From an uncultured Clostridia bacterium (GTDB lineage: Bacteria; Bacillota; Clostridia; Christensenellales; Borkfalkiaceae), in NCBI GenBank assembly GCA_947626935.1, contig CANQUD010000012.1:1-49883 (forward strand): 49,883 nt of DNA. The letters run 5' to 3'. Below the pieces are notes generated by a model that was not told where the DNA came from, did no database searches, and saw only the letters and a program-made list of their open reading frames with translations. Shown one piece after another: positions 849-13,488 of this stretch (positions are counted from its first letter, which is position 1; the number at the start of each line of letters is the position of its first letter). Made by a program: the position numbers and the translations under genes.

Positions 849-1601
849 TCAGACCATGTTCTCGAGGATGAGTTTATCGGCGACGAGGGCGATGAACTCG
901 CTGTTCGTCGGCTTTTCGGAGCCGATGTAGACGCGGGCGCCGAAAATGGCGTTGATGGCGTCCACTCTTCCGCGGTTCCAAGCCACTTCGATGGCGTGGC
1001 GGATGGCGCGTTCGACCTTGCTTGCGCTCGTCTCGAACCGTTCGCCGATGATGGGATAGAGTCCCTTCGTCACATTGTTGATGATCGTCGGCTGTTCGAC
1101 TGCCATCTTGATGCCTTCGCGCAGGTACTTATACCCCTTGATGTGCGGCGGGATGCCGATGGAGATGAAGATGTTGGAGATCCTCTCTTCCAGAGATCCC
1201 GCCCGTTTTCTTTCGACAGATTCCCTGATCGGCGCCGTTTCCGAACAGAGTTCGAGCACTCTGTCCCCCACGAGGAGCGCAGAGACGGGCTTCATGAAAT
1301 AATATCTTGCGCCGAGGGAGATGGCGCGGTTGATGATCTTGTCGTCGGAGAAATTTCCGAGCACGATGAAGTCCGTCTTTTTGCCGAGCCGCTTCGCCTC
1401 TTCGAGCACGGTGAACCCGTCGGCGTTCTGCAGGAATAAACTCACGATCGTCACGGCGGGCGTCTGCGAATCGAGGAGCTTCAGCCCCTCTTCTCCGTCT
1501 CCCGTCACGCCGCAAACTTCAAAATCTTTCCGTCCATCGAAGTACTCCTTCAGTTCCTTTGCAAATGCCTGGTTACTTTCCAAGATCAGAATTCGTTTCA
1601 T
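849..1601 (-). CDS. spo0A: Spo0A-type response regulator with a degenerate receiver
   Basis: The product is 250 residues long, the usual Spo0A length. Residues 1-115 align with the receiver domain and 135-250 with the Spo0A C-terminal domain. The latter is very well conserved: PPHIKGYKYLREGI, the recognition-helix stretch KVERAIRHAIEVAWNRG, and the end KPTNSEFIALVADKL. The receiver is not. By alignment with Bacillus subtilis Spo0A, the acidic-pocket pair D10/D11 is E8/S9, the phosphoacceptor D56 is S54 and T84 is G82; only the conserved Lys (K104) remains. I infer that it binds 0A boxes but is not switched by a normal Asp phosphorelay. The ATG at 1601 has a good AGAGGT site. The gene is monocistronic with an unusual promoter region (see 1639-1735). 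Confidence 0.93.
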   Translation of the reverse strand: MKRILILESNQAFAKELKEYFDGRKDFEVCGVTGDGEEGLKLLDSQTPAVTIVSLFLQNADGFTVLEEAKRLGKKTDFIVLGNFSDDKIINRAISLGARYYFMKPVSALLVGDRVLELCSETAPIRESVERKRAGSLEERISNIFISIGIPPHIKGYKYLREGIKMAVEQPTIINNVTKGLYPIIGERFETSASKVERAIRHAIEVAWNRGRVDAINAIFGARVYIGSEKPTNSEFIALVADKLILENMV

Positions 1602-1638: not shown

Positions 1639-1667
1639 ATTATAAATCACAAATTCAGATTTGTAAA
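1639..1667 (-). promoter_or_regulatory. spo0A: spo0A sigma-A promoter
   Basis: On the minus strand TTTACA (1667-1662), a 17-base spacer and a perfect TATAAT (1644-1639) predict a start near 1632 and a 5' leader of about 31 bases. The operator array begins five bases upstream of the -35 box. Confidence 0.8.
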
Positions 1668-1671
1668 GTCA

Positions 1672-1735
1672 TTTTTGTACAAAAATCGGATGAATTTTGT
1701 ACAAAATTCGACTATTTTTGTACAAAAATGTCGAA
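1672..1735. promoter_or_regulatory. three phased TTTTGTACAAAA operators with 0A-box matches
   Basis: There are three perfect palindromes sharing TTTTGTACAAAA: 1672-1685, 1692-1709 (GAATTTTGTACAAAATTC) and 1714-1729. Their centres are 22 and 21 bases apart, two turns of the helix, and lie near -46, -68 and -89 relative to the predicted spo0A start. An exact 0A box, TGTCGAA, is at 1729-1735, and TTCGACT at 1707-1713 differs from the inverted box by one base. I do not recognise the palindrome as the site of a known regulator. The placement fits an activator bound in tandem on one helix face, though a cooperative repressor is possible. Confidence 0.75.
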
Positions 1736-4598: not shown

Positions 4599-5176
4599 CG
4601 CAGTTTTTGTGAGACGGCAAGCCCTTCCCCGAGGTCGAGGATCTCCGTAGAGAGGTCGGGGTCGGTCTCGAGCATCCTTCCGTATTCGCGCAGATGTTCG
4701 GCGAGCATCCTGCGCTTTTTGGGCGCTTCCCCCCTCACCCAGCCGAAGAGCAGGACGTCGTCGGAGAGAAGGTATCCCCCCGTCCTTAACAGCCGTTTGC
4801 AGTCGGGAAGATATTTGATGTACTGGACTTTCGGACCGTCGAGAAAGATGAGGTCGAACTGCCCGCGGAGCATGGGCAGGATCTCTCCCGCATCCCCTTC
4901 GTAGAACGTCACGCGCTCCGAGAGGGAGAAGGCACGGAAGTTCTCCCTTGCACGCGATGCCCTTTGGGGATCCTTCTCGATCGCCGTCGCACGGCGGACA
5001 CCCGAAAGAAGGAGCGCGGCGGAAGTCAGTCCCTCCGCCGCGCCGATCTCCAAAAAGTCAGCCGCGCCGATGCGCTCCGAAAGTTCCAGAAGATATGTGA
5101 GCGTTTCATCCGCGCAGGCGGGATTCCGCCCCTTTTTCGCCTCTTCGCGCAGGGCGGCGATGCGGGGGTCGATCAT
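4595..5176 (-). CDS. SAM-dependent O-methyltransferase, TrmR-like
   Basis: 193 residues of the class I methyltransferase_3 family. The SAM-binding loop FLEIGAAEGLTSAALLL is at about 40-56, the acidic end of strand 2 is TAIEKD, and the metal/substrate strand FDLIFLDGPKVQYIKYL is followed by GGYLLSDDVL. In Bacillus the adjacent TrmR (YrrM) methylates 5-hydroxyuridine-34 to 5-methoxyuridine in tRNA, widening wobble decoding. The 4-base overlap with the U32 gene downstream makes the same job likely here. Start ATG 5176 overlaps the stop of the preceding membrane-protein gene by 4 bases, giving a three-gene translationally coupled run. A small-molecule catechol-type methyltransferase is possible on sequence alone but less likely in this context. 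Confidence 0.87.
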   Translation of the reverse strand: MIDPRIAALREEAKKGRNPACADETLTYLLELSERIGAADFLEIGAAEGLTSAALLLSGVRRATAIEKDPQRASRARENFRAFSLSERVTFYEGDAGEILPMLRGQFDLIFLDGPKVQYIKYLPDCKRLLRTGGYLLSDDVLLFGWVRGEAPKKRRMLAEHLREYGRMLETDPDLSTEILDLGEGLAVSQKLR

Positions 5177-5847
5177 TCTCCCCACTCCGCATGGCTCTTT
5201 GCCGCACGTTCCTCGTACACGCGTCCCAAGACGCGGCTGATGACGGGGAAGGGCGCATCGACGACGGATGCGGGAAGAGGTTCCGCATTGTCCGTCTTGA
5301 GGATTCTGTGGAATACCGCCGTCAGGATCTCGATCTGCTCCCGATAGATCTCCGCATGGGCGCATTGGGTGCGGAAGGACTCATACTCCCCCGCAGCCGT
5401 CTGCAGATCCCCCTCGTCAAGCTTGATGAGGATGAAGAAGAAGGCGGTCATGTATTTCCAGCCGTCGCCGCCGCCGTGGCGGAGACGGTCGATGTAGCGC
5501 TTGGCGGTCGCAATGTCGTCGAGCGCCATGTTGACGCGGACATAGCGGGTGAGCGCAACGGTGCGGATGAGGAAGAAGAAGGGACTCTTCATCTTCCTCT
5601 CGATGAGCGTCTTTTCCTCGTCGTACCGTTTCTCCCCGCACAGCTTGCCGCATTTGATGTTGAGATTGTCCTGTATGACGACCTTGGCGAAAAAGAGGAG
5701 CAGAAAGACAGCCAAAACGAATAAAAAGACGGCGGCAACGATCCCCTGCGGCTTTCCGCCCAAGAAAAGGACGACGATACCGAACGCAAGGAAGATCGCT
5801 GCGCAGATCGGCAATCCGATGTAGACAAACAAATTCCGTTTCATCAT
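5173..5847 (-). CDS. two-TM membrane protein with helical repeat tail
   Basis: About 224 residues, no family recognised. Two hydrophobic segments near the N-terminus (LFVYIGLPICAAIFLAFG and GIVAAVFLFVLAVFLLLFF) are joined by a short turn, giving a hairpin anchor. The remaining 160 residues look cytosolic and are arranged in helix pairs reminiscent of TPR repeats (cycles of about 34 residues around DDIATAKRYIDRL and DEGDLQTAAGEYESF). ATG 5847 is chosen because GGCGGGTG lies just upstream; ATG 5844 follows at once and GTG 5859 is also in frame. It sits between RNase J and trmR and is coupled to trmR by a 4-base overlap, which suggests co-expression but says little about function. Confidence 0.7.
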   Translation of the reverse strand: MMKRNLFVYIGLPICAAIFLAFGIVVLFLGGKPQGIVAAVFLFVLAVFLLLFFAKVVIQDNLNIKCGKLCGEKRYDEEKTLIERKMKSPFFFLIRTVALTRYVRVNMALDDIATAKRYIDRLRHGGGDGWKYMTAFFFILIKLDEGDLQTAAGEYESFRTQCAHAEIYREQIEILTAVFHRILKTDNAEPLPASVVDAPFPVISRVLGRVYEERAAKSHAEWGE

Positions 5848-9540: not shown

Positions 9541-10326
9541 CTACAGCATTTTCTTTTCGAGGCGGCGCCGCCCGAGCCGCACGCGGTTGAAGATGACGCC
9601 CGCGACGAAGCAGAGCATCATCCAGTAGAGCCACAGCAGAAAGATGAAGAGAAAGGCGAGTGCGCCGTACAGTTTTTGCTTGTCGCCGAAGTGCAGATAG
9701 ACGGAGAAGGCACCCGATGCGGCGAGCCACGCGACGGCGGTCAGAAAGCTCCCGAGCGCGGTGTCCGAGGGACGCAGACGGTACGGGCAGATGTAGGAAT
9801 TGAGGATCCATGCGCCGAAAAAGCCGAGTGCGAGCAGGAGCGCATAGAAGGCGGGGTAGGAAATATAGGGCGGAAGAAAGCGGGTAAAGACGCTCGCCGC
9901 AAAGAGCAGGGTCGCCGCGGCGGCGAAGAAGGCGAGAACGGCGAAGGTAAGAAGGATCGCCGAAATTCTTACCCGCCAGCCGTGGCGGAGGCGGCGGGTC
10001 TCATAGATCATTTCCCCGCTCTTGCGGAGATGATAGAAAAAGGCGGAGCACGACCAGAGGGTCGTTGCGAGAAAGAGAACGCTCACCTTTCCCCCCGCAT
10101 AGGCGGCATTCTCCCGAAGGACGGCGAGGAGTTCTTCCGCCCAGCCGAAGAGACCGCTCTGTTCGAGCGGGACCTCAAGGGCGGCGCTGCCGAAGAGCAG
10201 GGTCAGCCAAAAGACAAAGGGCACGAGGGATAGGATGAGGAAGAACACAAGCGTCCCCGCGACGGTGGAATATCGGTGATAGGTCAGCGTTTTTGAGATC
10301 TCTTTCACCCGTGCGATGAGTTTCAT
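9541..10326 (-). CDS. YihY/BrkB-family integral membrane protein
   Basis: 261 residues. Six predicted membrane helices begin with STVAGTLVFFLILSLVPFVFWL, whose aromatic and Ser/Leu/Pro pattern is characteristic of the YihY (Virul_fac_BrkB, once called RNase BN) family. Other segments are VLFLATTLWSCSAFFYHL, ILLTFAVLAFFAAAATLLF and the last LYGALAFLFIFLLWLYWMMLCFVAGVIFNRV. The conserved loop DTALGSFLTAVAWL precedes the final pair. The biochemical role of the family is not established; it is not a nuclease. The basic C-terminus RLGRRRLEKK fits a cytosolic tail. It follows the 30-residue ORF and a hairpin on the same strand and may be read from the ABC-exporter promoter or separately. Confidence 0.87.
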   Translation of the reverse strand: MKLIARVKEISKTLTYHRYSTVAGTLVFFLILSLVPFVFWLTLLFGSAALEVPLEQSGLFGWAEELLAVLRENAAYAGGKVSVLFLATTLWSCSAFFYHLRKSGEMIYETRRLRHGWRVRISAILLTFAVLAFFAAAATLLFAASVFTRFLPPYISYPAFYALLLALGFFGAWILNSYICPYRLRPSDTALGSFLTAVAWLAASGAFSVYLHFGDKQKLYGALAFLFIFLLWLYWMMLCFVAGVIFNRVRLGRRRLEKKML

Positions 10327-10362
10327 GAAAACAGTATGGGGAATTTGTGGAAAAAATAGAAG

Positions 10363-10386
10363 AAACCGTCACATGGGTGACGGTTT
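10363..10386. terminator. hairpin overlapping the end of the 30-aa ORF
   Basis: AAACCGTCAC-ATGG-GTGACGGTTT is a perfect 10-bp stem. The T run is best on the plus strand; on the minus strand the stem ends in TTTCTTCTATTTTTT. Its position just before yihY suggests that it ends or attenuates the marR-exporter transcript. Confidence 0.55.
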
Positions 10387-10461
10387 TTGTTTCTTCAAGA
10401 GGTCTTTGAGATAGGTTTCGTACTCCTCGTCTGTAAGCTTCGGGATCTTCTTCTTTGCCAT
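10369..10461 (-). CDS. 30-residue basic microprotein
   Basis: A short ORF coding for MAKKKIPKLTDEEYETYLKD plus ten more residues ending KKQKPSPM. It has a proper ribosome site (GAGGTG, four bases before the ATG) and starts 45 bases after the ABC exporter stop on the same strand. Its last codons are inside a perfect hairpin, so translation to the end would melt the stem. The Lys-rich start followed by an acidic helix suggests a folded micro-helix or a leader-peptide role. It has no known family. A chance ORF cannot be excluded, but the ribosome site and placement argue for it. Confidence 0.5.
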   Translation of the reverse strand: MAKKKIPKLTDEEYETYLKDLLKKQKPSPM

Positions 10462-10506
10462 AAGCACCTCGCACATTTCCCAAAGTATGCCCATGGCGGG
10501 AAGTTT

Positions 10507-13488
10507 TTATTCCGTCCTGAGCGCGATGACGGGGTCTTTTTTCGCCGCCGCCTGCGCGGGGATGAGTCCCGAGATCAACGTCAGAGCCACGCTGACGCAA
10601 ACCATGATGAATGCCGTCAGGGCGGGCAGCGATGCGATCCCCGAAATGCCCGAGAGCGAATAGATGATGAGGTTGATGATGACGGAGATCGCGTATGTCA
10701 CCCCCACGCCGATGAGTCCCGCGGCAAGCCCGATGATGAAGGTCTCCGCATTGAAGAGATTGCGGATATCCATTTTCCTTGCGCCGAGGCTCCTCAAGAC
10801 GCCGATCTCCTTGACGCGTTCGACGACGGACACATAGGTGATAATTCCGATCATGACCGAGCTGACGACGAGGGAAATGGACGTGAAGGCGACGAGGACG
10901 TATGTAATGACATCGAGCATCGTCTGCATCATGCCCATGAGCAGTCCCACGCGGTCGGTGTAGGTGATCTTGTCCCCTTCCTCCCGATTTTCCATGGTGT
11001 TCCATTTGTCGAGATAGGTCAAGACTTTCTCCTTTGCGTCAAAGTCGGCGGGATAGATGTAGACCCCGTTGGGCGTATCGTTTCCGCCGAGCGGGCGGAC
11101 AATGGTCTCCGCCAACCCATAACTGATGAAAATGGTGCCCGTAAGCGGCATGCCGAGCACGGGTTCCACGTTGCGCGTGACGAGCGGATCCCCGAGCGCG
11201 GCGGCGAGATCTTCGCGCGTGAAGGTCGTGCCGAGGTTTGCTACGTTTGCCTTCATGGCTTCCACCGTTTTCTCATCGAGCTGGGCAACGAGTGCGGGAC
11301 TGTATTGTTCGAGGAAAGCCAGCATGGCGTCACGGGTGAGCAGCAGATCGATGTTGGCACCCATCTGCTCGAGCGTTTCCAAAAAGCCCTCCCCCAAGGA
11401 GTCTGCGATCGCGCTGCGGACGGAGCTGAGGTCGAGCGCCGTATATTCCTCATTGAGCTGTGCGGACGGGGAGCGGTAGCCGACGAGGTCGTCGTATTCC
11501 CCCATGTCGAGCATGGACTTGACCATTTCCGTGAAAGCCTCGGGAAGCTTGGCGGCGTCGCTCTGCATCCACTTCACGATCTCGCTCTCCTTGTTTGCCG
11601 CGAGATAGTGATGCAGCGTTTCCTCGGTGATGTTGAACCCGTTATTGAGACAACCGTAGGTGCGTCCCTCCTTGAGGCGGAGCACAGCGGAAATTTTGAG
11701 GGGGATGCCGACTTCCTTGCCGTCCTTTTGCGTGGCGAGATCCTTCCGCTCGCCGCTATAGACAAACGGCTGCTCGTAGAAATCGGTCGTCTCCCTCTTG
11801 GAATAGACAGCATCGTTGAAGTAGAGGGTGTAATCTTTGTTCAGGATCTCTCCGAAGGGAATTTCCTTGAATTTTTTGTCCCCCGTATAGTCCTCTTCGC
11901 CCATGTTGAAGAGTTCCATAAAGTCCACTTCCGGCAAAAAGCCGAGCTGGGCGAGGGTCAGGTCGGTGGAATCGTTCTTTTCGCCGACGACGAGGACCGC
12001 CTCATTCTCGTTTTGGGGGAAGTGCATGGTCTCGGGGTCGAGAATGTCGTACTGCGACAGGACGTATTCGGAATAGCGTTCGTTGGAAAGTTCCGTCCCC
12101 GGCATGACGCCGAGCACGTCCGTAAAGAAATCCACATAGATGAGGAGAGCCTGATATTCGGGCGCAAGGGAGATGAGTTCATCCGTATAGAACTCCCTCA
12201 ATTCCGACAGCGAGAGATTTTTCCGGACGACGGGCGTGGTGACGTTATTATCACGGTCGAGTACGCCCCCCGTCGTGACAGAGGTGAAGAGATTGTCCGT
12301 AAGGCTCACGCCGTAGGAATACTTGATCGCGGAAAACCAGTCGGGGTGCTCCTTCATTCCCTGCTGCAGGTAGGAGAGATAGTCCTCCGAGAGATTGTTC
12401 GTGACGGCGATGCCCTGTGCGAGCTGCGTCAGGAAGGAATTGACGTACACCTTGTCGCCCAGCTGATCCATGTCGGGCAAGCTGTCGAGAGACTCCGCAT
12501 TCGCCATGACCGCATTGAGGTCGAGCGTGTTTTCCTGTATCTCGACGGGATAATAGGAGAGCATATCCTCTTCCGTCCTGCGGATGTAGGTGTTGAAGCC
12601 CGAGGAGAGCGCCAGAACGAGGCACACCGAGATGATGCCGATCGAGCCTGCGACCGACGTGATGATCGTGCGTCCCTTCTTCGTCAGAAGATTCTTTGCG
12701 GAGAGGGCGAGCGACGTGAGAAAGCTCATCTTCGCGCGGAGCCTTCCCGAAGCTCTCTTCTCTTCCGTCTCCCCCGCCTCTTGCGCGTATTCCTGCGCTT
12801 CCTCTTCCTCGGAATAGGGAGCGCTGTCCGATTCCACAAGCCCGTCCTTCAGACGGACGATGCGGGAAGAATACTTTTCGGCAAGCTCGGGGTTGTGCGT
12901 CACCATGATGACGAGGCGTTCCGAGGCGATCTCCTTGATGAGTTCCATGACCTCGACGCTCGTCTTGGAGTCGAGGGCGCCCGTCGGTTCGTCGGCAAGC
13001 AGGATGTCGGGATCGTTGACGAGGGCGCGGGCGATCGCGACACGCTGCATCTGCCCGCCCGAAAGTTGGTTGGGGCGTTTGTTCAGCTCTTCTCCCAGCC
13101 CCACGCGCTGAAGCGCCTTTTCTGCCCTCTCTCTGCGTTCCGCCTTGCCGACGCCCGCGATCGTGAGCGCCAGCTCCACATTCGACAAGACCGTCTGGTG
13201 CGGAATGAGATTGTACGACTGGAAGATGAAGCCGATCCTGTGATTGCGGTAGACGTCCCAGTCGCGGTCCCTGTAGTCCTTGGTCGACCTGCCCTGAATG
13301 GTGAGGTCGCCCGAAGTGTAATGGTCCAGCCCGCCTATGATGTTGAGAAGGGTCGTCTTGCCGCAGCCCGACGGACCGAGCACGGAGACGAATTCATTCT
13401 TCCGAAAGCAAAGCGTGATCCCCTTCAGCGCATGGACGCTCCCTTGCGCAACTTTGTAGTCTTTTGTGATGTCATTGAGTTTCAACAT
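10507..13488 (-). CDS. fused ABC exporter, ATPase plus FtsX-like permease
   Basis: 993 residues. Residues 1-225 are a LolD/MacB-type ATPase: Walker A GPSGCGKT 38-45, Q-loop FIFQSYNL, signature LSGGQ 142-146, Walker [14 protein letters not shown] 162-174 and switch His in MVTHN. An acidic linker follows. Transmembrane helix 1 (about 274-296, [21 protein letters not shown]) leads to a 500-residue extracytoplasmic domain, and three C-terminal helices ([34 protein letters not shown] ahead of the last two) form the FtsX-like unit. This is a type VII (MacB) mechanotransmission architecture, used for antimicrobial-peptide resistance, lipoprotein or toxin export. It lies 30 bases after a marR gene, so it is probably an inducible efflux or defence system. 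The substrate is unknown. Confidence 0.92.

Follow-up and report, generated by a model that had tools for sequence, protein, structure and literature searches.

The window, by which we mean the whole 49,883-nucleotide stretch of DNA that was analysed, carries a spo0A gene preceded by a sigma-A-like promoter and by three copies of a short palindrome (Table 1). It belongs to a metagenome-assembled genome (MAG; 1.675 Mb in 55 contigs, 93.7% complete; G000 below) that we take to fall in the family Borkfalkiaceae of the order Christensenellales in the GTDB taxonomy. Its close named relatives are MAGs from the gut; many bear isolate names in Lapin, which we take as rabbit, others come from chicken, sheep or water deer, and four of the relatives are called Candidatus Gallimonas. 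The open reading frame matches the TIGR02875 (Spo0A) model at 242 bits, which exceeds the curated cut-off of 200, and both domains are found in it, Response_reg at 50.5 bits and Spo0A_C at 130 bits. Residues 136-248 of the effector domain align with 1lq1 and 1fc3, and the receiver aligns with the Spo0A receivers 9phz, 1dz3 and 5wq0. The protein has the make-up of a Spo0A orthologue, with a receiver and a Spo0A_C domain over the TIGR02875 cut-off and a predicted DNA-binding domain of known fold, and the statement of a preliminary description of this DNA that the DNA-binding domain has been kept stands.

Table 1. Features of the spo0A locus in window coordinates
Feature	Position	Strand	Basis or remark
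spo0A, 250 aa	849..1601	-	start ATG at 1601, stop 849-851
Pseudo-receiver domain, residues 1-120, predicted CheY-like fold intact	1242..1601	-	domain scan and structure prediction
E8 and S9 codons, aligned to metal-binding D10/D11	1575..1580	-	alignment
S54 codon, aligned to phosphoacceptor D56	1440..1442	-	alignment
G82 codon, aligned to switch Thr, T86 of B. subtilis	1356..1358	-	alignment
K104 codon, active-site Lys kept, K108 of B. subtilis	1290..1292	-	alignment
Spo0A_C DNA-binding (effector) domain, residues 136-250	852..1196	-	domain scan, structures, conservation
-10 hexamer TATAAT, sigma-A-like promoter	1639..1644	-	sequence
-35 hexamer TTTACA, 17-bp spacer to -10	1662..1667	-	sequence
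Putative operator palindrome 1 (proximal), TTTTGTACAAAA	1673..1684	.	
Putative operator palindrome 2, TTTTGTACAAAA, 22 bp from palindrome 1	1695..1706	.	
Putative operator palindrome 3 (distal), TTTTGTACAAAA, 21 bp from palindrome 2	1716..1727	.	
Exact 0A-box core TGTCGAA beside distal palindrome (TTCGACA on the gene's strand)	1729..1735	+	

Set against B. subtilis Spo0A, whose reference sequence matches by eye a stretch of PDB chain 9phz_E, the window protein has E8 for D10, S9 for D11, S54 for D56 and G82 for T86, and retains K108 as K104. The alignment bears out the earlier placement of S54 at the acceptor and of E8/S9 at the metal pocket. G82 does stand at the switch Thr, which is, however, T86 in that reference sequence and not T84 as had been numbered, and K104 is not the sole switch residue to remain, because the protein also keeps Y101, the aromatic member of the Y/T switch pair, and a residue at position 8 that is still acidic. 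Examined as a phosphorylated response regulator, the protein has neither the acceptor Asp, nor the acidic pair, nor a switch Thr or Ser; it matches an aspartate-less receiver, which has the receiver fold but no acceptor Asp. The residues that normal phosphorylation needs are lost and, judging from the sequence, the protein probably cannot be phosphorylated in the usual way.

An AlphaFold2 model based on 41 sequences has a mean pLDDT of 84.9, with receiver blocks at 84-95 and a floppy linker; its pTM is 0.52, and it does not fix how the two domains lie with respect to each other. Foldseek related the effector of the predicted model to 1lq1 and 1fc3 and its receiver to 1qmp and 5wq0. A search of a viral structure library gave receivers, histidine kinases and phage Spo0A_C domains, and an Rfam scan of the window gave no match.

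The state of the receiver was followed through a genus set of 79 distinct sequences, 25 of them from the group g1 and 54 from named loci that were taken as belonging to the genus by their identity to the window (at least 64.5%, the lowest being L176); L113 was left out as partial, and the second of the two spo0A copies in L149 was entered. The acceptor site is Ser in 76 of the 79, Asn in two (one being the second copy in L149) and Asp in one, while E8, G82 and K104 are each present in all 79 and S9 in 73. In the effector, 74 of 113 columns (136-248) are conserved in at least 98% of the set; the receiver has 20 such positions, among them E8, D61, G82, Y100, Y101, K104, P105 and R114.

Beyond the genus, a family sample of 80 sequences from 78 genomes, with all 18 genera that the search showed, lacks the acceptor Asp in 66 sequences (Ser 32, Gly 13, Glu 12, Asn 8, Ala 1) and has the active-site Lys in 77, with Arg in the other 3. 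The 14 Asp-bearing sequences are those of g2 (4/4), g15 (1/1), g17 (4/4) and g18 (1/1) and half of those of g8 (4/8). The preliminary description had argued that the loss of several residues at once is a pattern and not noise, and the recurrence of Ser across the genus set and the absence of Asp from most of the family agree with it. In the other families of the order, 6 of 73 sequences (29 families) are without the acceptor Asp, a count that may be low because this sample took better-scoring matches first; the replacement is Glu in f10, f11, f19, f28 and f29 and Asn in a second copy in f21. A tree of 138 rows, computed with the pocket columns removed and with 15 of the 25 g1 rows left out, places the family in one clade (SH-aLRT 98). 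In this quick tree g2, g15, g17 and g18 branch from the family's unresolved base, and the acceptor-site state needs at least 11 changes. Taken together, the tree and the Asp counts therefore indicate that the loss is old in the family and has arisen elsewhere too. In f19, the Spo0A proteins of L226 and L325 lack the start of the profile (their matches begin at 18-22) and have the acidic pocket replaced (TI, KL); a full-length Spo0A was not found in G284 and G301, which keep SpoIVA.

A codon model run on 40 of the 79 genus-set sequences, among which synonymous sites are probably near saturation, gave an omega of 0.077 for the receiver and 0.019 for the effector. The corresponding medians of pairwise NG86 estimates (547 pairs with dS of 0.1-1) are 0.25 and 0.09, and the largest receiver value is 0.58; a receiver dN/dS near 1, which the preliminary description had named as grounds for abandoning its reading, is not what is found. 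At matched effector divergence, the receivers of Asp-less family members differ by about as much as the canonical receivers of other families: 0.639 versus 0.632 at an effector divergence of 0.15-0.25, 0.692 versus 0.666 at 0.25-0.35, and 0.472 versus 0.533 in the lowest bin, 0.05-0.15. Over all pairs, unmatched, the ratio of receiver to effector divergence is higher in the Asp-less proteins (3.0 versus 2.2). The Asp-less receiver is under purifying selection, diverges like canonical ones and is not decaying.

Nor does the window genome offer a canonical second spo0A, the other ground that had been named: its whole assembly contains one PF08769 match over the cut-off and no second. Neither relaxed selection nor an intact second copy, the signs expected of a pseudogene or a copy in decay, is seen. 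Elsewhere in the genus set, L149 has two spo0A genes in one locus (5001-5747 and 9842-10585), one with Ser and the other with Asn at the acceptor site, and G145 has two copies on different contigs (L021, L070), both with Ser. Five of the 29 g1 genomes (G111, G160, G165, G190, G200; 93-97% complete) gave no Spo0A match and keep a full-length SpoIVA; the missing gene may reflect an assembly gap or a real loss.

Directly upstream of the spo0A promoter lie the three 12-bp palindromes, two helical turns apart, which are absent from the preliminary description. Their centres fall near -47, -68 and -89, an estimate in which the start was placed from the -10 hexamer. Both promoter hexamers are exact with the 17-bp spacer in 67 of 76 genus upstreams. 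When these are aligned on the promoter (72 of 76, the four without a recognisable promoter being left out of the logo), the array columns are clearly conserved; the promoter itself served as the alignment anchor. The exact 0A core occurs in 44 of the 76, compared with an average of 3.19 and a maximum of 10 in shuffles.

The 1.675-Mb assembly contains no exact TTTTGTACAAAA beyond the three spo0A sites, and its one-mismatch versions, at eight places, are all single sites, several of them inside plausible reading frames. Among 201 family genomes, a strict doubled site is found at 10 places in nine genomes, eight upstream of spo0A and the other two in G178 and G008, and a reversed-pattern control gave none in the same 201. 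When the rule was relaxed, phased arrays were counted in 42 of the 79 family upstreams, made up of 20 of 25 from g1 and 22 of 54 from other genera, set against an average of 0.05 in 40 shuffles and 3 of 72 upstreams outside the family; the array is mostly missing in g5 (0/4) and g3 (1/5). L065 and L205, whose upstream is too short, were left out of this count and of the test for association with Asp loss. Of the 16 palindromes TTTTnnnnAAAA, TTTTGTACAAAA leads with 42, and the next give 25, 19 and 17.

Spo0A contacts G2, C4 and G5 of TGTCGAA, and single changes there cost about tenfold in affinity (PMC3485338). Because TTTTGTACAAAA lacks the C4-G5 contacted by Spo0A, a factor other than Spo0A is likelier to act at the array, and we judged it unlikely that the palindromes are themselves Spo0A boxes; none was seen at nine congener spoIIE promoters either. 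A small XRE/RstR-like repressor gene (537-839) converges on spo0A in the window. As a candidate regulator of the array it was set aside, since it lies beside spo0A in only 4 of 78 named loci, all close relatives (71 of the 78 have at least 900 bp downstream). The sole exact doubled TTTTGTACAAAA found outside spo0A promoters, at 1682-1713 of L291 (G178:C125), precedes a 208-aa open reading frame that resembles the phage RinA regulator family weakly and below cut-off, which is a lead to the array's regulator. L116 and L175 differ from the window locus in having a frame of about 1,100 aa, named by eye as FtsK/SpoIIIE-like, after spo0A on the same strand.

The preliminary description had suggested that control may have moved to transcription of spo0A. 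The phased array at the promoter lends this circumstantial support; an association of the array with the loss of Asp, by contrast, did not emerge. The raw counts (38 of 65 Asp-less against 4 of 14 Asp-bearing upstreams) do not yield a significant association once descent is allowed for by independent pairs within the family, and in g8 they run the opposite way, with the array in 3 of 4 Asp-bearing and none of 4 Asp-less members. We dropped the array as a marker linked to Asp loss accordingly.

Sporulation genes, whose retention the preliminary description proposed to check, are kept. Of 80 genomes tried, 74 have a SpoIVA match, among them 49 of the 51 from the family. The match in the window genome is over its cut-off and covers the full length, and there SpoIIAB (194 bits, cut-off 135) precedes a SigF/SigG-family factor and SigG reaches 375.7 bits, over the NCBI cut-off of 372. 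SigE is over its cut-off and directly before SigG in G042, and a SpoIIGA-like protein scores below cut-off in G123. The generic sigF model matches every genome tried, none over its cut-off. A SpoIIE-like protein is present in 43 of 44 genomes, and none of 37 family matches attains the NCBI cut-off for SpoIIE (241.9 bits in the window genome versus 490.8). Our first guess, a non-sporulating remnant, was demoted because SpoIVA, SpoIIE-like proteins and sporulation sigma factors are present.

In seven of nine congeners, the window genome included, the exact 0A core TTCGACA lies at a fixed distance from the spoIIE -10 hexamer, so that, at the level of sequence, a sporulation promoter does carry an 0A-box core. 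None was found within 76 nt of the spoIIE -10 hexamer in other genera, or in the few spoIIGA and spoIIAA upstreams that were read. Targets in B. subtilis often carry imperfect 0A boxes (PMC3485338).

A search of 30 genomes for HisKA gave no match in two relatives that carry Glu at the acceptor site, G022 (L043; g5, 96% complete) and G052 (L050; g7, 95%). Their HATPase_c matches, five and six respectively, are in each case two GyrB/ParE-like proteins, MutL, HtpG and SpoIIAB, with an MzaB-like ATPase in addition in G052, whose SpoIIAB is named only from its place beside a sigF-like gene; the absence of a sensor kinase from these genomes refers only to HisKA and HATPase_c at the tool thresholds. 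The window genome has five HisKA matches, four of which belong to hybrid frames, 734-1102 aa long and with receivers as well, on contigs C34, C21 and C19. Each of six other g1 genomes examined has two or three HisKA matches. A lack of orphan kinases was rejected as evidence: HisKA genes in f1 lie mostly beside response regulators, but so do those of the Asp-bearing G201 (11/11) and G212 (3/3).

The window protein resembles the Spo0A of B. subtilis and C. difficile in its two-domain order, in an effector 54% identical to the 1lq1/1fc3 chains over about 110 columns and in the exact 0A core that here precedes both spo0A and spoIIE; in those species, spo0A autoregulation and Spo0A binding before spoIIE are known (PMC12090719, PMC3485338). 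It departs from them in the missing phosphoacceptor, in the altered metal pocket and switch Thr, in the palindrome array and in the two relatives without a detected HisKA or HATPase_c kinase. With the aspartate-less receivers RitR, ChxR, HP1043 and FrzS, none of which is to our knowledge a Spo0A protein, it shares a CheY-like fold without the acceptor Asp; unlike in these, the switch Thr of the window protein is Gly, and the loss spans most genera of one family. Aspartate-less receivers are already a described class, whose members keep the Lys-Pro motif, the first acidic residue and the aromatic switch residue, as is the case here (PMC4395418). The same source, citing Spo0A, notes that exchanging Asp for Glu is often not enough to make a receiver constitutive. 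Bypass and truncated forms of B. subtilis Spo0A are laboratory mutants or fragments, whereas the Asp-less Spo0A described here is a natural, conserved state. The sad and sof alleles of B. subtilis are such laboratory bypass forms, whose action is independent of phosphorylation or involves it in a changed form. The isolated DNA-binding domain of Spo0A does without phosphorylation (PMC3485338).

In the open-access literature that was searched, with subscription papers outside the scope, no description of an Asp-less Spo0A came to light. Text look-ups gave no match for D56, Asp56 or phosphoacceptor in the pathway survey PMC6136694, or for these terms and receiver in PMC3533761. Uncultured gut bacteria have been classed as potential spore formers with possession of spo0A as the first criterion (PMC11536998), and published views on sporulation in Borkfalkiaceae conflict: the family has been called spore-forming by annotation (PMC6839795), potentially sporulating (PMC11536998) and non-sporulating by a classifier (PMC12536801).

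We propose the following model, which starts from what can be read in the DNA and its relatives, namely the residue loss, the constraint, the predicted fold, the spore genes, the 0A core at spoIIE and the array. The aspartate-less Spo0A would be a phosphorylation-independent regulator of sporulation set mainly by its own transcription, a reading to which we give a probability of roughly 45%. The receiver, which keeps its predicted fold and K104, would no longer depend on aspartyl phosphorylation and is probably a phosphate-independent dimerisation module. The effector would still read 0A boxes, in particular the fixed one before spoIIE, and Spo0A would then be competent to bind DNA without phosphate and probably still launch the sporulation sigma cascade. 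Control would be exerted mainly on how much Spo0A is made and not on how much of it is phosphorylated, chiefly through the array and 0A feedback: a separate DNA-binding factor would act at the phased palindromes next to the strong promoter of spo0A, while the adjoining 0A box would give Spo0A itself a route of feedback.

Against this model, the receiver is as constrained as canonical ones, more than a mere dimer module need be, and the constraint would fit a new ligand or partner equally well. In the main rival reading, the receiver would have turned to sensing something else: its activity would be set by a ligand, by a partner protein or by a modification of another kind, such as one of S54, and control would still be post-translational. 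We hold this to be rather unlikely; it is nearly as compatible with the constraint data as the model above, and both can be true. The matched divergence of Asp-less and canonical receivers and the 20 receiver positions conserved in at least 98% of the genus set speak for it, as does the retention in other aspartate-less receivers of the Lys-Pro motif and the first acidic residue, for which other modes of control have been discussed (PMC4395418). Site 56, on the other hand, is S, G, N, E or A by genus, which fits loss rather than one new chemistry, and the genes that flank spo0A in the window are found next to it in just 3 to 7 of 78 loci.

That the lineage is losing sporulation, with Spo0A a relict or redeployed to other genes, seems improbable. 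The low SpoIIE scores, the lack of a Spo0A match in five g1 genomes and the classifier's verdict on Borkfalkiaceae MAGs (PMC12536801) would fit, but the SpoIVA, SpoIIE-like, SpoIIAB, SigE and SigG frames are kept, the 0A core at spoIIE is fixed and the effector omega is 0.019; all five genomes without Spo0A retain SpoIVA, so their missing gene may be an assembly gap. More improbable still is normal switching with the phosphate on a different residue: position 8 is still acidic and K104 remains, yet the metal pocket, the acceptor and the switch Thr have all changed, the nearest conserved Asp, D61, belongs to an ordinary Asp-Gly after the acceptor strand that is also found in B. subtilis, and two relatives are without a detected HisKA or HATPase_c kinase. 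Hardly credible at all is a canonical second Spo0A missing from the assembly, with the window gene as a decaying copy. The completeness of 93.7% in 55 contigs leaves room for a missing gene, and second copies do occur in the genus set, on two contigs in G145 and in one locus in L149; these carry Ser or Asn, never Asp, all 25 g1 sequences (24 genomes) have Ser, the window genome has its single PF08769 match, and omega and matched divergence show no decay.

Phosphorylation of Spo0A is the textbook entry to sporulation. Extended to the whole family, the model of a phosphorylation-independent Spo0A set by its own transcription would mean that Spo0A has left two-component signalling, that a dedicated regulator acting at a family-specific array determines how much of it is present and that some members start spores without a conventional sensor histidine kinase, a generalisation that we offer only tentatively and consider more doubtful than the model for the window itself. 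A natural Asp-less Spo0A, together with an 0A box at spoIIE and spore genes, makes the dispensability of phosphorylation for sporulation testable, and with it how the control of such a switch in development could pass from the modification of a protein to transcription.
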